IMG/VR virus record: IMGVR_UViG_3300028228_000470
Span: 1 to 24,192 of that record
From: a virus
Reading direction: 5' to 3' (one strand)
DNA: 24,192 nt
The notes below the pieces were generated by a model, which was given only the letters and a program-made list of their open reading frames with translations, was not told the DNA's origin and did not search any database. This document shows, in pieces, positions 5,314 through 21,389 of the stretch. The stretch's first letter is position 1. Each line of letters opens with the position of its first letter. Made by a program: the position numbers and the translations under genes.

Positions 5314-5744
5314 GCCACGCGAGGCAAAAGATCAGAGATCATATAGCGACGATTTTGGACGCGATACCGGGCATCGAGATATTTAACTCGCGGGTGTATC
5401 CGATTGTTACCCTTCCGGTTATTTCAGTGTTTACGCTTTCCGAGGAATCAAGTTCAGAAAATGAATTATTGACCGCACCTCGAAGGTACAGCCGAAGGCT
5501 AATCGTTGATATTGCGATTACTGTCAGCGACTCGGTGGACTGCGATGAAGTGGCCGACGACTTTGCAAGTTTGTGTGAAATAGCAATGGCGGCTGATACC
5601 ACGCTAGGCGGTAAGGTAACTGATTCGATGCTGGCAACTACCACAACGGAAATGAATGCAGGCGAGAAGCCGATATTTGTGACGAATCTTATTTATGAGA
5701 TTTGGTACAGAACAACAGCCGGTGATCCCGATAACGTCATTTAA
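5310..5744 (+). CDS. Tail terminator protein, gpU-like
   Basis: 144 residues with the order helix, beta-rich core (VYPIVTLPVISVFTLSEES), RRLIVDIAITVSD strand and the C-terminal KPIFVTNLIYEIWYRT strand seen in gpU-type minor tail proteins. The protein caps the end of the growing tail tube when it reaches its final length and forms the head-proximal interface. It is coupled to the gpZ-like gene and followed by a strong terminator. No missing region is apparent. Confidence 0.85.
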   Translation: MSHARQKIRDHIATILDAIPGIEIFNSRVYPIVTLPVISVFTLSEESSSENELLTAPRRYSRRLIVDIAITVSDSVDCDEVADDFASLCEIAMAADTTLGGKVTDSMLATTTTEMNAGEKPIFVTNLIYEIWYRTTAGDPDNVI

Positions 5745-5760
5745 CTTAAACCCAACAAAG

Positions 5761-5781
5761 ACCCGCTTCGGCGGGTTTTTT
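5761..5781 (+). terminator. Rho-independent terminator after gpU-like gene
   Basis: ACCCGC stem (5761-5766), TTCG loop (5767-5770), GCGGGT stem (5771-5776) running into a T tract. It separates the connector genes from the tail tube gene, which needs to be made in excess. Confidence 0.85.
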
Positions 5782-5803
5782 ATGCCTGAAATTTGGAGCA
5801 ATT

Positions 5804-5959
5804 ATGGATTTTTACATAGACGAAAAGGGCGACCGTTACGCGGTTGATTTGTTCGGCAAGAAAACATTAACAGACCCAGAAGTGACTGGAGAAGTCGCTT
5901 CTCCGGTGCAACCAAAAACACCTAAACTCAAAGCACCGCAAACCGAAGATGAGGATTAA
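5804..5959 (+). CDS. Small acidic/lysine-rich protein before tail tube
   Basis: 51 residues starting MDFYIDEKGDRYAVDLFGKK, with TTGGAGC as ribosome site. It has a short N-terminal beta segment and a disordered tail rich in Pro, Lys and Glu. It lies between a terminator and the tail tube gene, and its stop is three bases before the next ATG. Small proteins in this position are common in related phages. No function can be assigned. Confidence 0.65.
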   Translation: MDFYIDEKGDRYAVDLFGKKTLTDPEVTGEVASPVQPKTPKLKAPQTEDED

Positions 5960-5962
5960 CCC

Positions 5963-6895
5963 ATGCCATTATTAGCGCGTAAAAAGATACTTCTTGCCAA
6001 GATCGAAAGCACCTATGGCACAGATTCAACCCCCACGGGTGCGGCTAACGCCATACAGACGAGCGACTTGTCAATCACTCCTCTGGCTGGTCCGACTGTG
6101 TCCCGTAATTTAGATAGATCGGTTCTTGGCGGAGACTTACAGATACAAGTAGGGACGTTTGTCGAACTTTCTTTTATGGTTGAGATGGCTGGCGGAGGAG
6201 GTATTGACACGCCTGCGGCCTATGGCCCGCTCTTGCGCGCTTGCGGAACCGCCGAAACGGTTACTGCTACAACCAGTGTTCGCTATGACCCTATATCAAC
6301 AGCTCCTCCAGGTCTGTCGATGTATTTTGCGCACGATGGGCAACTGCACAAGGTGGTAGGCGCTCGCGGCAGTGTCGCCTTGCAGATGGATCCCGGCACG
6401 ATTCCAAAGTATGCGTTTACTTTTACAGGTCTGTATGTCGCGCCCTCATCCACAGGCGACCCCACGCCGGACTTTGCCGCGTACATCGTGCCAGTGCCGG
6501 TAAATAAGGTGAACACGGCGACCTTTACGCTGCACTCAACAGCAATGAACGTGACCGCTTTTAGCGTGGATTTTGCCAACGAAGTGATTTACCGCAACAT
6601 CATCGGCGAAGAATCTGTCCAGATTGTGGATAGAGCTGTTGTTGGCACTATCTCTTTTGAGTCTCCCGCAATATCAGCAAAAAACTGGTTTGAAATTGCG
6701 CGCCTTTCAACACTGGGTAGCCTTAACGTTATCCACGGAACTGTGACAGGCAACAGGGTTATTGTTAGCTCTCCGAGTGTGCAGCTAATATCGCCAACAT
6801 ATGCCGAATCAGATGGCGTTTCAATCATATCAGCCAGCCTCTCGCTGTTGCCGTCCTCTGTTGGCAACAACGAAATCCGAATTATAACCACCTAA
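5963..6895 (+). CDS. Major tail tube protein
   Basis: 310 residues. The N-terminal LARKKILLAKIESTYGTDS, then ANAIQTSDLSITPL, a central GPLLRACGTAETV and KYAFTFTGLYVAPS are hallmarks of a widespread siphophage tail tube family. It would stack as hexameric rings around the tape measure to form the non-contractile tail. It is the first large gene after the terminator at 5761 and is followed by the tail chaperones, as expected. It appears complete. Confidence 0.92.
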   Translation: MPLLARKKILLAKIESTYGTDSTPTGAANAIQTSDLSITPLAGPTVSRNLDRSVLGGDLQIQVGTFVELSFMVEMAGGGGIDTPAAYGPLLRACGTAETVTATTSVRYDPISTAPPGLSMYFAHDGQLHKVVGARGSVALQMDPGTIPKYAFTFTGLYVAPSSTGDPTPDFAAYIVPVPVNKVNTATFTLHSTAMNVTAFSVDFANEVIYRNIIGEESVQIVDRAVVGTISFESPAISAKNWFEIARLSTLGSLNVIHGTVTGNRVIVSSPSVQLISPTYAESDGVSIISASLSLLPSSVGNNEIRIITT

Positions 6896-6904
6896 GGAAA
6901 GTTT

Positions 6905-7243
6905 ATGTTTGAACTACGAGCGCAGGCAACATTCACATGGCCCGCAAAGGCTAAAGTGCCAGACGGCGGGAAATATGAAACGGTGCCTTTTGATGTAACC
7001 TTTAAGGTTTTATCTCAAGAAGAAATAAATGTGCTGATTGGTGACGATGCGGAAGGCGGATCTATTCGTGTGCTGCGTGAGGCGTTAGTTTCGTTTTCGG
7101 GTTTCCCTGTGAGGGACGAGGACGGCGAGCTGTGCGAGGACGACGAATCACGCAATGATATTATATTGCGGGTGCCATACTTTGTCAGCGCGTTATCTGA
7201 TGCCTGGATTGCAGGTATATCCGGGCGACGAATAAAAAACTGA
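6905..7243 (+). CDS. Tail assembly chaperone, gpG-like (zero frame)
   Basis: 112 residues starting MFELRAQATFTWPAKAKVP. The middle contains LSQEEINVLIGDD, then acidic stretches, ending ISGRRIKN. Position between tail tube and tape measure and the A AAA AAC slippery site at its last codons identify it as the lambda G-type chaperone. Such proteins coat the tape measure and recruit tail tube subunits and are not in the virion. Most ribosomes should stop here, and a minority shift to make the GT product. Confidence 0.88.
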   Translation: MFELRAQATFTWPAKAKVPDGGKYETVPFDVTFKVLSQEEINVLIGDDAEGGSIRVLREALVSFSGFPVRDEDGELCEDDESRNDIILRVPYFVSALSDAWIAGISGRRIKN

Positions 7244-7578
7244 AGGACGCTGTCGATCATCTAGTTGGCGGCAGCGGTGGATCAAAAGAACTAGAGGATG
7301 ATCTTGATTACTGGGGAGCGCCTGAAAGCGCAAGGCCGCCGGCAGTGTCCGAAACTTTTGGCGTTATGCCGGAAAACTGGGACTCTCTTAACGTCTTTAT
7401 TGCAATGCAAACGCAATGGCGAATATCCCCAACTGGATCAAGAACCGGGCTGGAGTATTCCAGCATTCGCCCCGTGTGTTATGCAAAAAAAATAAGGCTC
7501 ACGCCGGAAATTTTTGCTGATGTTCAAATGATGGAAATCACGCTCATAAATCGAGAGTCAAAAAATGGCAACAGGTAG
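6905..7578 (+). CDS. Tail assembly chaperone GT fusion by -1 frameshift
   Basis: Reading shifts back one base at 7240, giving join 6905-7240 and 7240-7578, about 224 residues. The shifted part has no good start of its own near its beginning. It carries the DUF1799/gpT-type motif PENWDSLNVFIAMQTQWR followed by GSRTGLEYSSI. Its stop (TAG 7576-7578) overlaps the tape measure start by 14 bases. In lambda the T extension lets the fusion bind tail tube subunits while the G part binds the tape measure. The layout here is the same. Confidence 0.9.
7234..7240 (+). promoter_or_regulatory. A AAA AAC programmed -1 frameshift site
   Basis: The heptamer AAAAAAC is read in the zero frame as ATA AAA AAC, immediately before the TGA at 7241-7243. 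This fits the X XXY YYZ rule exactly, and slippage gives AAA AAA CTG. The downstream -1 frame is a conserved gpT-like domain, so the site is functional rather than accidental. Confidence 0.92.
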
Positions 7579-10519
7579 ATTCGATTATGTGCTGCAAGCC
7601 AGCGCATCGGGGTTTACCTCCGAAGTGCAAAAGGCAGAACGCTCTGTTGACGGCTTGGATAAGTCGCAGAAAAACGCCAAGCGCTCAGGCGATGACTGGT
7701 CGAAAGGCACTGAAAAGCTGACGACTGCATTTAAGGCGCTGGGCGTTGGTCTGGCTGTGGCTTCTGCTGCTGGTGCCGTTATTTTTAATAAAATGATTGC
7801 CGCCACTATCGAACAAGATAGGGTAATGGCGCAGCTCAATGCGACATTGAAATCAACAGGCGGAGCAGCTGGTAAAACTGCTAGCGATCTAGCCAAAACT
7901 GCCGCTGAACTGCAAAAGATCACAACATACGGCGATGAAGCCATTATTTCGGCACAGTCTTTGCTGCTAACATTTAAGGAGATAAAGGGAGACAATTTCG
8001 ACCGCACGACCAAAGCCGTTTTGGATATGTCAACAGCAATGGGCACTGATTTAAAATCGGCAGCTATTCAGCTCGGCAAGGCGCTCAACGATCCAGCCAC
8101 TCAACTTTCAGCACTGTCTCGGTCTGGTGTTTCCTTTTCGGAATCGCAGAAGGAAATGGTTAAGGCGATGGTCGAGTCTGGAAACATCGCAGAAGCGCAG
8201 ACACTCATCCTTAAAGAGCTTGAATCACAGTTCGGCGGATCTGCTGAGGCAGCTAGAAACACGCTAGGCGGCGCTCTGGAGGGACTTAAAAACAACTGGG
8301 GTGATCTATTCGAGGTTCAGGGACAGGCGTCTGAGGGCATGGTCGATTCCATAAATACGCTAAACCAGACCATATCTGACCCGCAATTTAAAGAGTCGAT
8401 GGACGCGATTTTGAACGGCCTCATAGGTATAGTTAATTTTGCCGCTAAAGGCGCTGCCGCGATTGCATTTTTATACCAGACCATTGCCGGTACACGAGAA
8501 AAAACGCTAGTTGATCTTGGAGAGGAGATTGATACAGTAAGCACTGCGCTTGCGAACCTTGAAAAAAACCGGCGGGGCAGCTCTGCGACCGCAATTAAAT
8601 ACCGCGCTCAACTCGTCAGTTTACAGAAAGCATATGACGCAGAAGTAAAAGCGATCAATTCCGCAGGCAAATCTATTACGGCGCTATCGCCGATTATTGT
8701 CACGGCTACAGAGCGAACTGCGTCATTTGCAACAGCAACAGAAAAATCCTCCACGGCTTTAATCAAAAAAGCCGCATCATGCAGCAAGGCTGCAACTGAG
8801 GTTGCCAAGCTATCCCCGATTATCGTCACCGCAACGAGAAAAGCTGAAGTATTCGGAACGGCTAACGTTAGTGCAGCAGAAGAAACCTCTGAGGCGTGGG
8901 AGTCTGCACGCAGCACGCTGTCTGATTTCTTTTTTGAAATGGCCCGCGATGGAAACAACGCTTTTGATACCCTAGTAAAGGGATTTAAAGCGATGATCGT
9001 CAAGATGCTGGCCGAGGCTGCGGCTAACCGCATACTGTTGGCCGTGGGAATTGGCGCGACTTCCGCCGGCGCTGCTGCGGGTAGCGCCTCATCGCTGCTG
9101 TCTGGCGGTAGCTTTTTGGCTGGATTATCCGGTGGCATTGCTGAGGCTGGGCAGGGATTTTATGAGGGTATCGGGACATTTGCCAGCAACAACGGGCTGA
9201 CAGGAATCGGTGACGCGGCTTATACCAAAGGGCTAAACACGTCGCTTACGTCAATTGGGCTTGATATTGGCGGCGGGCTTGTGGGGAGTTTTCTCGGCAC
9301 TAAAGCGTTTGGCGAAACCAGTGGTATCGGTGCAGGCATTGGCGGGATTGCTGGTTCTATCGCTATACCTATTCCTGGACTTGGCGCTGCGATTGGCAGT
9401 TTTATCGGCAGCGGCTTGGAGTCGCTTTTCGGACAAGATAACAACGGCAACAACGCTGCCAGCGCCAGCTTTAACTTAGGCACAGGCGCCAGCAGCTCGC
9501 GCGGCATTGGTAACAGTTTCGATCAAGCCAACGTGGATGGCGCTAATACGTTGGTTAGAGTTTTGCAGTCTTTCTCTGATGCCATTGGCGGTTCAACGCT
9601 ATCTAATAATCTTGAGATTGGCAACAAGAACGGCATTAAGTACAACAACGTCAGTTTCGGACAGGATGTTGAGGCTTTCTTGCAGGTAGCGTTCGACGAC
9701 ATTATTAAGTCAGCGACCAACCTTAAAGAAAGTTTAAAGCCGCTAATACTCAGCTTTGAAGGTGCCTCTGGTGAAATAGCACGCTTTGCAAATTCTATTG
9801 CGTCGATAGATTCGCAAGCCGGAATCAACACAGTCACAAATGCGATTGAGCAGTTTAACGCTGTGCAGCCGTCTATAGCAAATGCTTACCAAGACCAGAC
9901 AGACGCATTGCAACTGCTGATAGATGGATACGATGGCTCTCTGTCTGCCTCAGAGCAATTAGCGGCGAGCTTGTTTACCAACAAGGTAGCAGCCTACGAG
10001 TTCGCGCTTGCCATTCAGAGTATTGGCCGTTCTCTTGCTGATCAAGCCGATGCGCAGGCAGTATCAATACGCGAGTCTGTAATGTCTCCACAAGAGATTT
10101 TAGACAGGCGCATCGGGGAAGCTGCATTTTTGCGGCAGGGTTTGGATCAGCAGACTGATCCCGTACTGGCTGCCGAAATAACGCGGCGGTATCTTGAGCT
10201 TAACAGGCTAATTTTTGACAGCATTACTGATGAACAGCAAATCTCTAATGCTGAATTATTCGCAGGTAACGCCGAAAGTTCCAACGAGGTTTTACAAAGG
10301 ATACTTCAAGGGGCTGTTGATGGCCTTGAAAACACGCAGAACAGCATTAATGAACAGGTCGCTACTATGCTTCAGAGCGCTGGCACGGGACTGCTTGAGG
10401 CAGCGGAAGCGCAGCAGCGGGCGGCAGAGACAACGCAAAGCGCTGCGGAACTATTGCGTGACGTTTTAAACAATTTCAACCCTTTCAACTCTTTTCGTTA
10501 TAGCGAGATTGGAAACTGA
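7565..10519 (+). CDS. Tail tape measure protein
   Basis: 984 residues, the longest intact frame. The N-terminus (GRFDYVLQASASGFTSEVQK) and the following charged helices are typical of lambda-family tape measures. A hydrophobic segment at ~58-78, a long region with SAAIQLGKALNDPATQLSAL and LGGALEGLKNNWGDLFE, and a glycine/alanine-rich hydrophobic stretch at ~490-640 all fit the family. It sets tail length and exits ahead of DNA. At roughly 0.15 nm per residue the tail would be near 150 nm. The peptide LSPIIVTAT occurs twice (~374 and ~416), suggesting a short internal duplication. The stop overlaps the next ATG. Confidence 0.93.
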   Translation: MATGRFDYVLQASASGFTSEVQKAERSVDGLDKSQKNAKRSGDDWSKGTEKLTTAFKALGVGLAVASAAGAVIFNKMIAATIEQDRVMAQLNATLKSTGGAAGKTASDLAKTAAELQKITTYGDEAIISAQSLLLTFKEIKGDNFDRTTKAVLDMSTAMGTDLKSAAIQLGKALNDPATQLSALSRSGVSFSESQKEMVKAMVESGNIAEAQTLILKELESQFGGSAEAARNTLGGALEGLKNNWGDLFEVQGQASEGMVDSINTLNQTISDPQFKESMDAILNGLIGIVNFAAKGAAAIAFLYQTIAGTREKTLVDLGEEIDTVSTALANLEKNRRGSSATAIKYRAQLVSLQKAYDAEVKAINSAGKSITALSPIIVTATERTASFATATEKSSTALIKKAASCSKAATEVAKLSPIIVTATRKAEVFGTANVSAAEETSEAWESARSTLSDFFFEMARDGNNAFDTLVKGFKAMIVKMLAEAAANRILLAVGIGATSAGAAAGSASSLLSGGSFLAGLSGGIAEAGQGFYEGIGTFASNNGLTGIGDAAYTKGLNTSLTSIGLDIGGGLVGSFLGTKAFGETSGIGAGIGGIAGSIAIPIPGLGAAIGSFIGSGLESLFGQDNNGNNAASASFNLGTGASSSRGIGNSFDQANVDGANTLVRVLQSFSDAIGGSTLSNNLEIGNKNGIKYNNVSFGQDVEAFLQVAFDDIIKSATNLKESLKPLILSFEGASGEIARFANSIASIDSQAGINTVTNAIEQFNAVQPSIANAYQDQTDALQLLIDGYDGSLSASEQLAASLFTNKVAAYEFALAIQSIGRSLADQADAQAVSIRESVMSPQEILDRRIGEAAFLRQGLDQQTDPVLAAEITRRYLELNRLIFDSITDEQQISNAELFAGNAESSNEVLQRILQGAVDGLENTQNSINEQVATMLQSAGTGLLEAAEAQQRAAETTQSAAELLRDVLNNFNPFNSFRYSEIGN

Positions 10520-17279: not shown

Positions 17280-17645
17280 AAATTACTCTCCTGCTCTATG
17301 TCGGGACCAAACGTATCACTCATAACCCACTCTCCAGCGCTGTTTTTAGCCTCGCCTGAACCATAAATAGATTTGCCACCAAGTATGCCTGAGAATGAGA
17401 CCTCGCCAGACTCGTTAATAGACAAAAGAGAATACGTCTTGGGGCGAATTACTCCACTCCAGTTCTATGTACCCGTCCTCCGTGTATTCTGCGCTGTATT
17501 CCCAAAGGCTGGCACTCCCCGCCTCAAGCTCCTCGATGCGCTCTGCCGCTTCGATCATCAGGGCCGTGTCGCTGCCCCAGGCAATGCGCTCGCCAAGGGA
17601 AATGCTATCCGCTTTCGATTTCAGTCGGTCTTTTAGGTCACTCAT
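17276..17645 (-). pseudogene. Hypothetical protein, frame broken at T4; 76 aa as read, 122 aa restored
   Basis: ATG at 17645 with GGCAGGAGAGTGATTT upstream. As sequenced it reads 76 residues (MSDLKDRLKSKADSISLGER; MIEAAERIEELEA coiled helix; DGYIELEWSNSPQDVFS) and stops at 17415. Removing one T (AAAA at 17424-17427 on plus) extends the beta-rich part as LSINESGEVSFSGILGGKS and GEWVMSDTFGPDIEQE to a TGA at 17276-17278 that overlaps the next ATG, like the rest of the operon. An N-terminal helix plus beta C-terminus suggests a two-part protein. Function unknown. Confidence 0.65.
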
Positions 17646-17785: not shown

Positions 17786-18036
17786 AAATCGTGCCAAAGA
17801 ATGTCGGTGTTTGTGTCGGTGAGCTGTCGATACATGGGCAATCAGACACCGACAGACGCTGTAAGCTGCTGATAAATAACGACACAGATCGACAGGGGAC
17901 ACTAAGCCACGGGTTCGAGTTATGCGACCCATCAACATGGACCGGCGTCATAACGGTTGGCCCGCGCTCTGCAGTGCCGTCGTAGTAGTAGCCACAACTT
18001 GTGGTGGTCGTTTAGGTCGCATAGTTTATTTTTCAT
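17766..18036 (-). pseudogene. Hypothetical gene, frame broken at A3 (89 aa restored)
   Basis: The ATG at 18036 overlaps the stop of the upstream repeat-protein gene (ATGA). As sequenced it reads MKNKLCDLNDHHKLWLLL and stops after 34 residues at 17932. Removing one A (TTT at 18011-18013 on plus) joins MKNKLCDL to TTTTSCGYYYDGTAERGPTV and MTPVHVDGSHNSNPWLSVP, open to a TGA at 17766-17768. The middle section looks protein-like. The last ~20 residues overlap the next gene. The opposite strand is also open here, so the call is tentative. Function unknown. Confidence 0.4.
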
Positions 18037-18728
18037 GCAGCAGTCTTCCCAGGCTTTTCGGCAGTAACCGCTTCCCTGATTTTTTCAGATGCCTCACACG
18101 CATCAGCAACCCACTCCGGAGGCTCTCGCTTGCTATCTCGAAGGGTCTCAAGCATCCATCGTTCGGTGCTGGTCCACTTGTCATCTTTGAGTAAGTTGAT
18201 GACCTTTTTCAAAACGCGAAAGCACAGCGCGTCATAGCAGCCATTGCTGATATCCATGCCCAGCCTTTCCTGCCAATAATCCCGCTGCCAGGCAGCTGGC
18301 AACACGCGATTTATGTAATATCTTTCTGGTAGGTGCGGCATCGATGCGTGCGACCAGATCAGGTCACCAGAGATAAAGAGGTATTCGCCACTGCAGTCCA
18401 GGTTTCCACTGCAGTCCAGGTAGCCACGGCAGTCCAGGTTGCCACGGCAGTCCAGGTTGCCACGGCAGTCCAGGTTGCCACTGCAGTACAGGCTGCCACG
18501 GCAGTCCAGGTAGCCACGGCAGTCCAGGTAGCCACTGCAGTACAGGTTGCCACTACAGTACAGGTAGCCACCGCAGTACAGGTAGCCTCCAACGACAATG
18601 CCTGCGATTTCTTTGCCAGCGGAGTAAGGCACGTCGCATTGGATGCGCAAGTCACCTTCAATTCGAATGACGCCGTCTTTGCTGCGAAGCGCCAGAAGTT
18701 CGTCTGTGGTTTTAACAATCTTTTCCAT
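18033..18728 (-). CDS. Cysteine-ladder hexapeptide repeat protein
   Basis: 231 residues from ATG 18728 (AAGGG upstream). A longer frame reaching 18815 lies in the upstream gene. N-terminus MEKIVKTTDELLALRSKDGV, then 11 consecutive hexapeptides of pattern (Y/N/S)-L-(Y/D)-C-(R/S/G)-G at ~51-116. Hydrophobic Leu and Cys alternating with Gly turns suggest a beta-solenoid with stacked Leu and Cys ladders. The C-terminal ~100 residues are helical (YYINRVLPAAWQRDYWQERL; RVLKKVINLLKDDKW) and end in a charged tail. Family unknown to me. The fold resembles polymer-forming beta-helix proteins only in general pattern. It is co-transcribed with the recombination genes and coupled to the next gene by ATGA. 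Confidence 0.85.
   Translation of the reverse strand: MEKIVKTTDELLALRSKDGVIRIEGDLRIQCDVPYSAGKEIAGIVVGGYLYCGGYLYCSGNLYCSGYLDCRGYLDCRGSLYCSGNLDCRGNLDCRGNLDCRGYLDCSGNLDCSGEYLFISGDLIWSHASMPHLPERYYINRVLPAAWQRDYWQERLGMDISNGCYDALCFRVLKKVINLLKDDKWTSTERWMLETLRDSKREPPEWVADACEASEKIREAVTAEKPGKTAA
18388..18585. repeat. 11 tandem 18-bp repeats (coding, minus strand)
   Basis: Eleven back-to-back 18-bp units with consensus CCACGGCAGTCCAGGTAG on plus, varying mainly at positions 5-6, 11 and 16-18. They encode the hexapeptides of the Cys-ladder protein on minus. Several units are nearly identical (three consecutive CCACGGCAGTCCAGGTTG), so copy number can probably change by slippage or recombination without breaking the frame. 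Confidence 0.95.
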
Positions 18729-18729
18729 T

Positions 18730-19092
18730 TTATGACCCTTGGGTTTCGGTGATCGATAGGTCGGGCAGATCGAATGCGTCGATCCGCATGCCATGTTTGA
18801 ATTCAAACAAACCAATCCCGTACCAGCGATACCATGCGCGCTCTACGCTCGATATGCTGTACCCCGTTGCTCGCGCTACAATCCCAGCATAGGGCTTACG
18901 CTGTACAATAAGGGCATCACAGCGGCGCTTACGCTCGGCATCGCGCAGAGCCGAATAGGTGGTTCCCTCATTCCGCAGCATTCGGCACATATCATTTTGC
19001 CGCATAGATAGAGCCTCCGCCGTTGCTGCCAGCGTTGCGTTTTCAAGCGGCACGGCGCTCAGGTAGTGCTGTATCGTTTCTGTTGTTTTCAT
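18730..19092 (-). CDS. AraC-like DNA-binding protein (HTH domain only)
   Basis: 120 residues. Residues ~20-60 (TAEALSMRQNDMCRMLRNEG, then TTYSALRDAERKRRCDALI) and ~70-95 (GIVARATGYSISSVERAWYR) match the two helix-turn-helix motifs and linking helix of an AraC/XylS C-terminal domain, including the RNEGTTYS turn. The usual ligand-binding domain is absent, so it is a stand-alone DNA-binding domain. It may regulate phage or host promoters. Its ATG shares one base with the stop of the coiled-coil gene upstream, and its TAA is one base from the next ATG. Confidence 0.75.
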   Translation of the reverse strand: MKTTETIQHYLSAVPLENATLAATAEALSMRQNDMCRMLRNEGTTYSALRDAERKRRCDALIVQRKPYAGIVARATGYSISSVERAWYRWYGIGLFEFKHGMRIDAFDLPDLSITETQGS

Positions 19093-19967
19093 CAGTATTT
19101 AATCCAAAAAGCGGGGACTTTGTTTTCTGCAATTGCAATAACAACGGCCTTAGCCTGGGACTCACTTATCTTTGCGTGCTCTATTAAGGCAGCCATTGCC
19201 GCACGATTTATTTTTACTTTGTGCGCCCGGTTAGCCATGCGCTTTTCAGTTTCTGCGTGCTCTGCTGCCTCCTTATCCCGCTGCGCCTTTTCTGCTGCTT
19301 CGGTGGCAGCGACTTTGGCCCGTTCGGTGGCTTCTTCTGCTATCTTTTCTTCGCGCTCAGTGCGTGCTTTTTCTCCAGCCGCCACGCGCTCGGCCTCGGC
19401 ATCAATAGCTGCTTTTTCTTGCGCCTGCAATCCAAGCAGCATCGGCTCTAAAAGTTGCAGCGACCTGTCTTTATTGAGTGCTGCCAGCGCCTCAAACTCT
19501 CCATAACTATCGTCGATTATGCGCGACTTAATCGCCGTGATCCTGTCCTGCACAACGCTAGACGTTGGCGCTATTTGGAATTCAGCGAGATCACGAAACT
19601 CTGACGCTCTACGCAATAAATCATCTTGCACCGCTTTTAGCGCCGCTTCGTGATCTGAGATTTGCGACTTGATGCCATCTTGGAGGGTCAGTAGCTGATC
19701 TTTGATTCGCTTGCGCTCACCGTCTAGCAGATCAACTCTCTCTTTCAGCGGCGCTTTAATATCTTTGTGAGCGCCGTCCAGCTTGGCGATTACCTTTCCG
19801 ATGGCGAGCTTATCAGATCGCGCCTGCTTGTCCTGCTCTGGCACAGTGAGATCATAAATAATTCCTTCGTAACGATCTTTGTACTCGGACAGATTTTTTT
19901 CAAACTCCCGAAATTCAACTATTTCAGTGCTTGTGATTGCTGGTAATAATTCCGCTGCGTTTGTCAT
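19092..19967 (-). CDS. Coiled-coil protein associated with phage recombinase
   Basis: 291 residues, almost entirely helical. Residues ~15-60 contain EFEKNLSEYKDRYEGIIYDL and QDKQARSDKLAIGKVIAKLD, a pattern I know from coiled-coil proteins next to phage exonuclease/annealing genes. Residues ~195-255 are a highly charged Ala/Glu/Lys/Arg coiled coil, and the C-terminus (ALIEHAKISESQAKAVVIAI, then AENKVPAFWIKY) looks like a small folded domain. No catalytic motif. It overlaps the recombinase stop by four bases, so the two are made together and may interact. Role unknown. Confidence 0.75.
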   Translation of the reverse strand: MTNAAELLPAITSTEIVEFREFEKNLSEYKDRYEGIIYDLTVPEQDKQARSDKLAIGKVIAKLDGAHKDIKAPLKERVDLLDGERKRIKDQLLTLQDGIKSQISDHEAALKAVQDDLLRRASEFRDLAEFQIAPTSSVVQDRITAIKSRIIDDSYGEFEALAALNKDRSLQLLEPMLLGLQAQEKAAIDAEAERVAAGEKARTEREEKIAEEATERAKVAATEAAEKAQRDKEAAEHAETEKRMANRAHKVKINRAAMAALIEHAKISESQAKAVVIAIAENKVPAFWIKY

Positions 19968-21199
19968 GCTGATTTCCTTTTTGTCATTAATGTTTTCATC
20001 GTGTTTTCCAGCGCCACCAGCTCGCTATTAAATAGCGTTATTGCGTCTGCCATTTGTTCAATGTCCTTTTCGTTCCGTGGTACTCGGCAAATAAATAGCT
20101 GTAGCCCTTCCGGTAGCCGGTCATCGAAGCTGATAAAATCGTTCCAATCGCGTCCCGTGCACCACATTTGATGCTGCTGCTGCCAGTAGTATTTCGAGTC
20201 AGCCTTGCCTGATTGCAAAGTGGCAATATGCGTGGCGCTGTTGGGGCACTTAACTTCACCGACACCATTGCCGAAAACAAGGCAGTCAGGGCTTGTTCCA
20301 GTGTAATCAAGTTGCGGGTGAACAATGAAGCCAACGTCCTGCACCAGTAATCCCGTTTCGATCTCATAAGCAGATTTCGCAAGCGGCTCCAGGTCTATTC
20401 CGCGCTGCATAATCGCGTTAGTGTATGTTTCTTCCCGCTGACCTGTAAGCCGCTCACAGAGCAACTGCGCCATGTAGTTTTTACGCGATGCACTAGGCTC
20501 ATTGCCTCGGCCCTTCGCCATCACATCGCTTACGCGGCTGCTAGTGATCTTGCCAATTCGAGCAGAAAACCAATCTTCTGAACCTTGCAAATTATTCACT
20601 GGTTTTTGCCTCCTTAAAAACTCGGCTTTTTTAACATCCTTCACGGCGGTCAATTCTTCCCGAGCGCTAGGCGGTAGGCTGTGATAAAGCATTTTGAAAG
20701 TCGCGGCTAGCTCGTCGATGTTCGCCGCGTTTTTCAATTGCTCTAGCTCCTTGCTGATGTCCAGCTCCGCAGTTCGGCTTTCGTCGTTCTCGCCTGTTTC
20801 CAAGCTGAAAGTTTTCAGAATGGCGTATTTAACAGCGTAAGACATAGCCTTGCCGGGCGCTTTGTCGCCGTTGTCGTTAGCGTGAGCATTGACAGTGGTA
20901 GTGCAGCTATCGTCAGGCTTATCTATATTGACAAAGTGGACAGCATAATCGCCTGCGTAAAGGTGCATTTTAATGTCATTCTTTAGGTCTCTGGCCTGCA
21001 ACAGCTCGCTGCGTAACTGCTCAACACGCACAACAATACCTGCCTTGACCATTTCTTTGCGAAGCACAGCTATAACCATATCGTGACTTACGGCTTTGTA
21101 GGTGCCGCCAGCACCGGCTGATACGCTTGCATCCTTTTGGACGTACTCAACCACTTTCATTACTGCATTGATGCGCTGGTAGATATTCATGTCATTCAT
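19964..21199 (-). CDS. ERF annealing protein fused to YqaJ-type exonuclease
   Basis: 411 residues from ATG 21199 with GAGGA upstream. A longer frame to 21295 is inside the membrane-protein gene. Residues ~5-145 match ERF single-strand annealing proteins (GTYKAVSHDMVIAVLRKEMV; HFVNIDKPDD; APGKAMSYAVKYAILKTFSL; ETGEND). A helical linker (~145-200) leads to a YqaJ/lambda-exonuclease domain: SEDWFSARIGKITSSRVSDV, RGIDLEPLAKSAYE, and the PD-(D/E)xK site with D305 (TSPDCL) and E315/K317 (GEVKCPN). It would resect double-stranded ends and anneal the exposed strands, combining exo and SSAP functions in one chain. No stop or frame break lies between the domains. Confidence 0.9.
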   Translation of the reverse strand: MNDMNIYQRINAVMKVVEYVQKDASVSAGAGGTYKAVSHDMVIAVLRKEMVKAGIVVRVEQLRSELLQARDLKNDIKMHLYAGDYAVHFVNIDKPDDSCTTTVNAHANDNGDKAPGKAMSYAVKYAILKTFSLETGENDESRTAELDISKELEQLKNAANIDELAATFKMLYHSLPPSAREELTAVKDVKKAEFLRRQKPVNNLQGSEDWFSARIGKITSSRVSDVMAKGRGNEPSASRKNYMAQLLCERLTGQREETYTNAIMQRGIDLEPLAKSAYEIETGLLVQDVGFIVHPQLDYTGTSPDCLVFGNGVGEVKCPNSATHIATLQSGKADSKYYWQQQHQMWCTGRDWNDFISFDDRLPEGLQLFICRVPRNEKDIEQMADAITLFNSELVALENTMKTLMTKRKSA

Positions 21200-21389
21200 G
21201 TTCGATTCCTCGCGATAGACCAGACAGCGACAAAAAGAAAAGCCCAAAGCACTGAGGCTGGCCAAAACCATACTGGCGCTGTTATTAGCCACCAAGACGA
21301 ACTAATAACGCCGGTTAATTTCAGCGCGGCGAGCACCAAAAATAAGACCAGCAAAAAAGCACCGTTATTGTCGCCTGAAAATTTGTCAC
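21196..21389 (-). pseudogene. Small membrane protein, frame broken at T6
   Basis: GTG at 21389 with AGAGGGGG upstream, overlapping the preceding stop. It reads MTNFQATITVLF. Adding one T to T6 (AAAAAA at 21353-21358 on plus) continues it as LLVLFLVLAALKLTGVISSS, then WWLITAPVWFWPASVLWAFL and FVAVWSIARNRT, to a TGA that overlaps the recombinase ATG, 64 residues. Two membrane segments with KLTGVISxSWW resemble the small phage transmembrane family annotated as fragile-X-F-like. As sequenced, the product stops after 24 residues. Function unknown. Confidence 0.65.

Follow-up and report, generated by a model that had tools for sequence, protein, structure and literature searches.

Several families of short-unit solenoids provide a frame of reference for the repeat protein considered here. 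The bactofilin domain folds as a right-handed beta-helix with three sides (PMC9507126; PMC12448750); it polymerises, and the ends on either side of it are typically unstructured (PMC12448750). The left-handed hexapeptide beta-helices, such as those of LpxA and gamma-carbonic anhydrase, are three-sided solenoids of six-residue [LIV]-[GAED]-X2-[STAV]-X units, while the pentapeptide-repeat proteins, which also occur in phages, are solenoids of five-residue A(D/N)LXX units. In the window, the whole 24,192-nucleotide stretch of viral DNA that was analysed, we studied a gene coding for an array of hexapeptides of the form xLxCxG. We put at about one half the probability that its product is a length-variable solenoid binding protein of an early recombination region, consisting of a rod and a helical effector domain, the binding role being one that we infer.

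The window protein shares with the bactofilins (PF04519) a hexapeptide rhythm, alternating hydrophobic residues along with glycine and a predicted beta-solenoid, but differs from them in its cysteine-rich core, its N-terminal cap, its helical C-terminal domain, its near-identical DNA units and its being encoded by a phage gene. It has no match to the bactofilin profile at E <= 10. The same profile matches proteins of phage contigs with the same hexapeptide and other ends (L005, 3.5e-16; L055, 4e-9), and it reaches members of the family described below, namely those of L066 (2.6e-5, 24.8 bits) and L088 (1.4e-4, 22.5 bits), both below the cut-off of 27.9. These phage-contig LxCxG proteins, typified by L005, L028, L052 and L055, have in common with the window protein the hexapeptide and its variation at positions 1, 3 and 5, but their N- and C-terminal parts are unrelated to those of the family. 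Likewise, the six-residue unit and the probably three-sided solenoid are reminiscent of the left-handed hexapeptide beta-helices, from which the window protein nevertheless departs in lacking recognisable catalytic residues and any match to the hexapeptide-repeat profile (no Pfam family at E <= 1). The pentapeptide-repeat proteins resemble it as short-unit solenoids, but its unit has six residues and its array is nearly neutral, and no pentapeptide-repeat match was recovered in Pfam. More generally, no family in Pfam (curated cut-offs), PHROGs, NCBIfam or PADLOC names this protein, and a literature search found no paper on a phage bactofilin-like or cysteine-solenoid protein.

Table 1. The repeat gene, its parts and the genes upstream of it in the window
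Feature	Coordinates	Strand	Remarks
Repeat-protein gene	18033..18728	-	231 aa + stop; homologues in 12 other IMG/VR contigs
N-terminal cap, aa 1-48	18585..18728	-	TTDELLALR..DGVIRIE.DLRI.CDVP..AG..IAG; conserved in aligned relatives; found by own scan; confident in model
Array of eleven 18-bp units, each coding for xLxCxG (aa 49-114), predicted beta-solenoid	18387..18584	-	Repeat analysis and model
Last solenoid strand and helical C-terminal domain (predicted), aa 115-231	18036..18386	-	WSHASMP..RVLP.WQR..WQERLG..GCY..TERWMLETLRDS
120-aa gene immediately upstream, weakly HTH-like	18730..19092	-	HTH_18 E 0.004, below cut-off; stop 1 base before repeat-gene start
phrog_1376 protein (function not assigned)	19092..19967	-	Member also near L088 homologue
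Fused ERF-type annealing protein and YqaJ exonuclease	19964..21295	-	Profile matches

The open reading frame, the array and a shuffle test agree in upholding the eleven perfect hexapeptides reported in a first-pass annotation of this DNA: the units are contiguous, every one of them fits [YNS]L[YD]C[RSG]G, and shuffling the protein 20,000 times never gave a hexapeptide run above 2. Tandem Repeats Finder (TRF) gives the 18-mer array a score of 276. Other frames are also open across the array, because the 18-bp unit that repeats is free of stops; the frame given in Table 1 is taken as coding since it runs on into a C-terminal domain that relatives keep under purifying selection, and since the gene begins one base after the end of the upstream gene. 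The start is preceded by AAGGG. Among homologous C-terminal domains dN is 0.26-0.38, dS is close to saturation or beyond it, and most changes fall at third positions, a substitution pattern by which this domain is under purifying selection.

Scans of IMG/VR with the whole protein, the C-terminal domain, the N-terminal cap and two DNA patterns recovered relatives in L001, L063 (one contig with L002), L003, L006/L065 (one contig), L064, L066, L067, L068, L069, L070, L078 and L088, some of which sit at contig ends, along with an extra, divergent short form lacking the C-terminal domain in L077. A C-terminal domain profile, in which the window protein was included, matches 10 of the 16 records searched with E-values of 2e-57 to 6e-16, and matches L088 at 2e-20; this profile and the scan for the cap place the window protein in a family defined by N-terminal cap, LxCxG array and C-terminal domain. 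The same kinds of scan, run over 84,980 prokaryote genomes and 50,697 phage records, found no relative, and the family therefore looks rare in sequenced isolates. Certain candidates were rejected in the course of these searches: the sole tblastn match among phages lies antisense to a PEQPKE-repeat gene of Bacteroides phage BC679P5, a match on a B. altitudinis plasmid is antisense to the plasmid's CDS, and many matches to the LxCxG DNA patterns were excluded as unrelated low-complexity repeats (MLGCPG etc.). What emerges is a family defined by its two ends, matching no family of the four databases named above and seen only in IMG/VR virus contigs.

AlphaFold2, supplied with ten family members, modelled the protein with a mean pLDDT of 92.4 and a pTM of 0.86, as an N-terminal cap, one three-residue strand at each L-x-C, a longer final strand and five C-terminal helices; the C-terminal domain modelled alone had a pLDDT of 59. 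The beta-solenoid fold is well supported by this prediction, and the model likewise bears out the distinct C-terminal helical domain of the first-pass annotation. The same annotation had counted eleven coils, a number that does not stand: because each hexapeptide contributes a single short strand and solenoids of the bactofilin type are three-sided, the eleven hexapeptides probably make up about four (3.7) three-sided coils, with three hexapeptides to a coil. Neither the order of residues along the arrays nor a search for three-unit (lag-3) periodicity gave a consistent period. Foldseek searches against the PDB and viral structures returned nothing at E <= 0.001, the best viral match, to an S74 protein of a Gaeavirus, covering 103 columns at 1.6 Å with an E-value of 0.018. 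In a VIA comparison, limited to the families on the VIA list, left-handed hexapeptide enzymes ranked highest by Z-score, yet at an rmsd of about 11 Å, as against 5.2 Å to 4wa0. These structure searches are weakly compatible with a bactofilin-like solenoid.

The cysteines are not constant in the family. Cysteine occupies 65 of 75 unit slots over the nine family loci counted, but in L064 and L088 valine stands in its place across the whole array, and the L068 array reads x-C-x-I-x-G, with isoleucine at the cysteine slot and cysteine at the leucine position. Since the strand is three residues long, the leucine and the cysteine would face the same side, and as both slots accept aliphatic residues in these arrays, both appear to be core slots. 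Cysteine is thus most likely a buried core filler exchangeable with valine or isoleucine, its core placement being deduced from the sequences. By the same comparison a cysteine ladder is not a conserved function of the family, and the line of working thiols that had been proposed for this protein is not supported; homologues with cysteine not conserved are what the first-pass annotation itself had named as refuting its proposal. A regular line of cysteines in a solenoid need not signify thiol chemistry.

Variability in the number of units, predicted at the outset from their near-identity, is evident in the closest relative. Where L001 and the window align they are 95-99% identical, and within the gene the first 144 and last 351 bases that flank the array are identical, while the arrays have 16 and 11 units respectively; two units at the beginning and eight at the end match up, and between them L001 has six units and the window one. 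Other relatives have 1 (L067), 3 (L068), 6 (L064), 7 (L069), about 11 (L088) and 20 (L066) units, the changes in array length going in 18-bp steps, and in L070 a deletion or a change of frame interrupts the homologue after its second unit and before the C-terminal domain (about 7800-8123). Units within an array are 79-96% identical, whereas most pairs of arrays from different phages are 37-80% alike (about 90% among the window, L001 and L003), a contrast that is the mark of concerted evolution. Nature thus supplies a series with constant ends, a rod of 1-20 units and a core residue that is Cys, Val or Ile, on which one could test what determines solenoid stability and whether selection drives phages to diversify solenoid surfaces.

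Variation between units is almost confined to positions 1, 3 and 5, which would face outward. Across seven family arrays about 35 unit-to-unit changes at these positions are nonsynonymous and 4 synonymous, where a synonymous share of 0.37 would be expected (p 1.8e-4, which is optimistic in that the arrays share ancestry and the events are not fully independent). From this excess, diversity among the outward residues seems to be favoured. In the regular units of the window, L003, L006, L064, L066, L069 and L088 leucine is always encoded by CTG and the third codon always ends in C, a pattern that holds even in the 38% GC gene of L088; CTG accounts for 28% of leucine codons in the large genes of the window. 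Outside the family, the L005 gene (863-1741, minus strand) has 31 LxCxG units, which vary at three outward positions and show zero synonymous differences from one another.

Genes for recombination recur near the repeat gene. ERF, RecT or YqaJ lies within about 6 kb of it in the window and in 6 of the 11 other contigs checked: in L003 and L064 the homologue is followed by RecT and YqaJ, in L070 by ERF, and in L065, L068 and L088 it has YqaJ close by, the last of these neighbourhoods also having phrog_1376 and SSB. L066 has instead a helicase and a pentapeptide-repeat gene upstream of the homologue. The association with recombination or replication genes is recurrent; it does not tell the function. 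The recombination neighbours of the gene are thereby upheld; the early phage operon of the first-pass annotation is a putative one, deduced from ERF and YqaJ.

In the reading that we prefer, a soluble phage protein would begin with the N-terminal cap, continue as a beta-solenoid rod and end in the helical C-terminal domain. Each x-L-x-C-x-G would supply one short strand, with leucine and cysteine pointing into the core, glycine at the turn and positions 1, 3 and 5 outward, and about three hexapeptides would form each coil of a right-handed, three-sided, bactofilin-like solenoid, in which the cysteines would be reduced core residues and not a working thiol ladder. Unequal recombination or slippage may expand, contract and homogenise the array, a turnover by which rod length and outward side chains would change fast while the caps and C-terminal domain are held. 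Most likely the product would serve as a rod that binds proteins and bears a helical effector domain, and it would be made together with the phage's recombination genes. That its target is a host factor, such as a nuclease, a recombination protein or a defence protein, is a guess of doubtful standing.

The same turnover could be read as neutral drift of the repeats in a gene that the phage can dispense with, and the array as a slippage product with no role of its own. The spread from 1 to 20 units among relatives, the broken copy in L070 and the 11 and 16 units of near-identical phages are all in keeping with this, but core residues and third bases are fixed, only outward residues vary, synonymous changes are fewer than expected, length changes keep to 18-bp steps and the C-terminal domain is under purifying selection, and we consider such drift unlikely. 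In another reading, selection may keep the outward residues at positions 1, 3 and 5 diverse while recombination shuffles and recounts the units around a fixed Leu/Cys core, making a modular recognition solenoid by which the binding of an early protein is quickly re-tuned. If true, this would be a beta-solenoid counterpart of the TALE-like or leucine-rich-repeat arms-race proteins, but we regard it as quite improbable. A cysteine ladder whose stacked thiols serve in metal binding, in disulphide formation or in the crosslinking of rods would accord with the prevalence of cysteine in the units and with the predicted solenoid. The bacterial cytoplasm is reducing, and this, together with the arrays in which valine or isoleucine replaces cysteine throughout, the single unit of L067 and the inward side common to cysteine and leucine, renders a functional ladder very improbable.

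The affinity to bactofilins raises the prospect of a filament former that polymerises end to end in the cell. The bactofilin profile does match same-repeat proteins and, weakly, some family members, and bactofilin domains are themselves polymerising right-handed triangular beta-helices (PMC12448750); against this, the window protein has no such match, and conserved extra domains occupy both ends of its solenoid in place of the typically unstructured bactofilin flanks (PMC12448750), so that we hold this role to be decidedly unlikely. Mimicry of DNA, as by pentapeptide-repeat proteins that inhibit gyrase or restriction enzymes, had also been raised at the outset, and the solenoid shape and the pentapeptide-repeat gene next to the L066 homologue speak for it. 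The unit, however, has six residues and matches no pentapeptide profile, and in place of the strongly negative surface expected of a DNA mimic there is an almost neutral array, with a net charge of -2 over 66 aa in the window (-5 over the entire protein) and 0 in L003 and L066, on account of which we give this mimicry hardly any credence.

Some further observations concern the surrounding contigs. The repeat gene was considered as the target of a diversity-generating retroelement (DGR), a candidate that was dropped as there is no RVT_1 match in 11 related contigs, which may be partial. In L068 at least seven tandem short ORFs (5580-7862 and 10085-10282) each contain the cassette RGGSW..NARNVRSANR..GFRLVSG, which is characteristic of formylglycine-enzyme/C-type-lectin folds and of the variable regions of DGRs, and they lie beside one longer ORF with the rest of this domain; this 43-kb contig has no RVT_1 match. 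In L066 the pentapeptide-repeat gene (6922-7434) is directly upstream of the homologue, placing two solenoid genes side by side. Finally, a 76-aa ORF of the window (17415-17645) corresponds, in shortened form, to a 122-aa ORF of the near-identical contig L002 (793-1161), and the window copy therefore looks frame-shifted or truncated.
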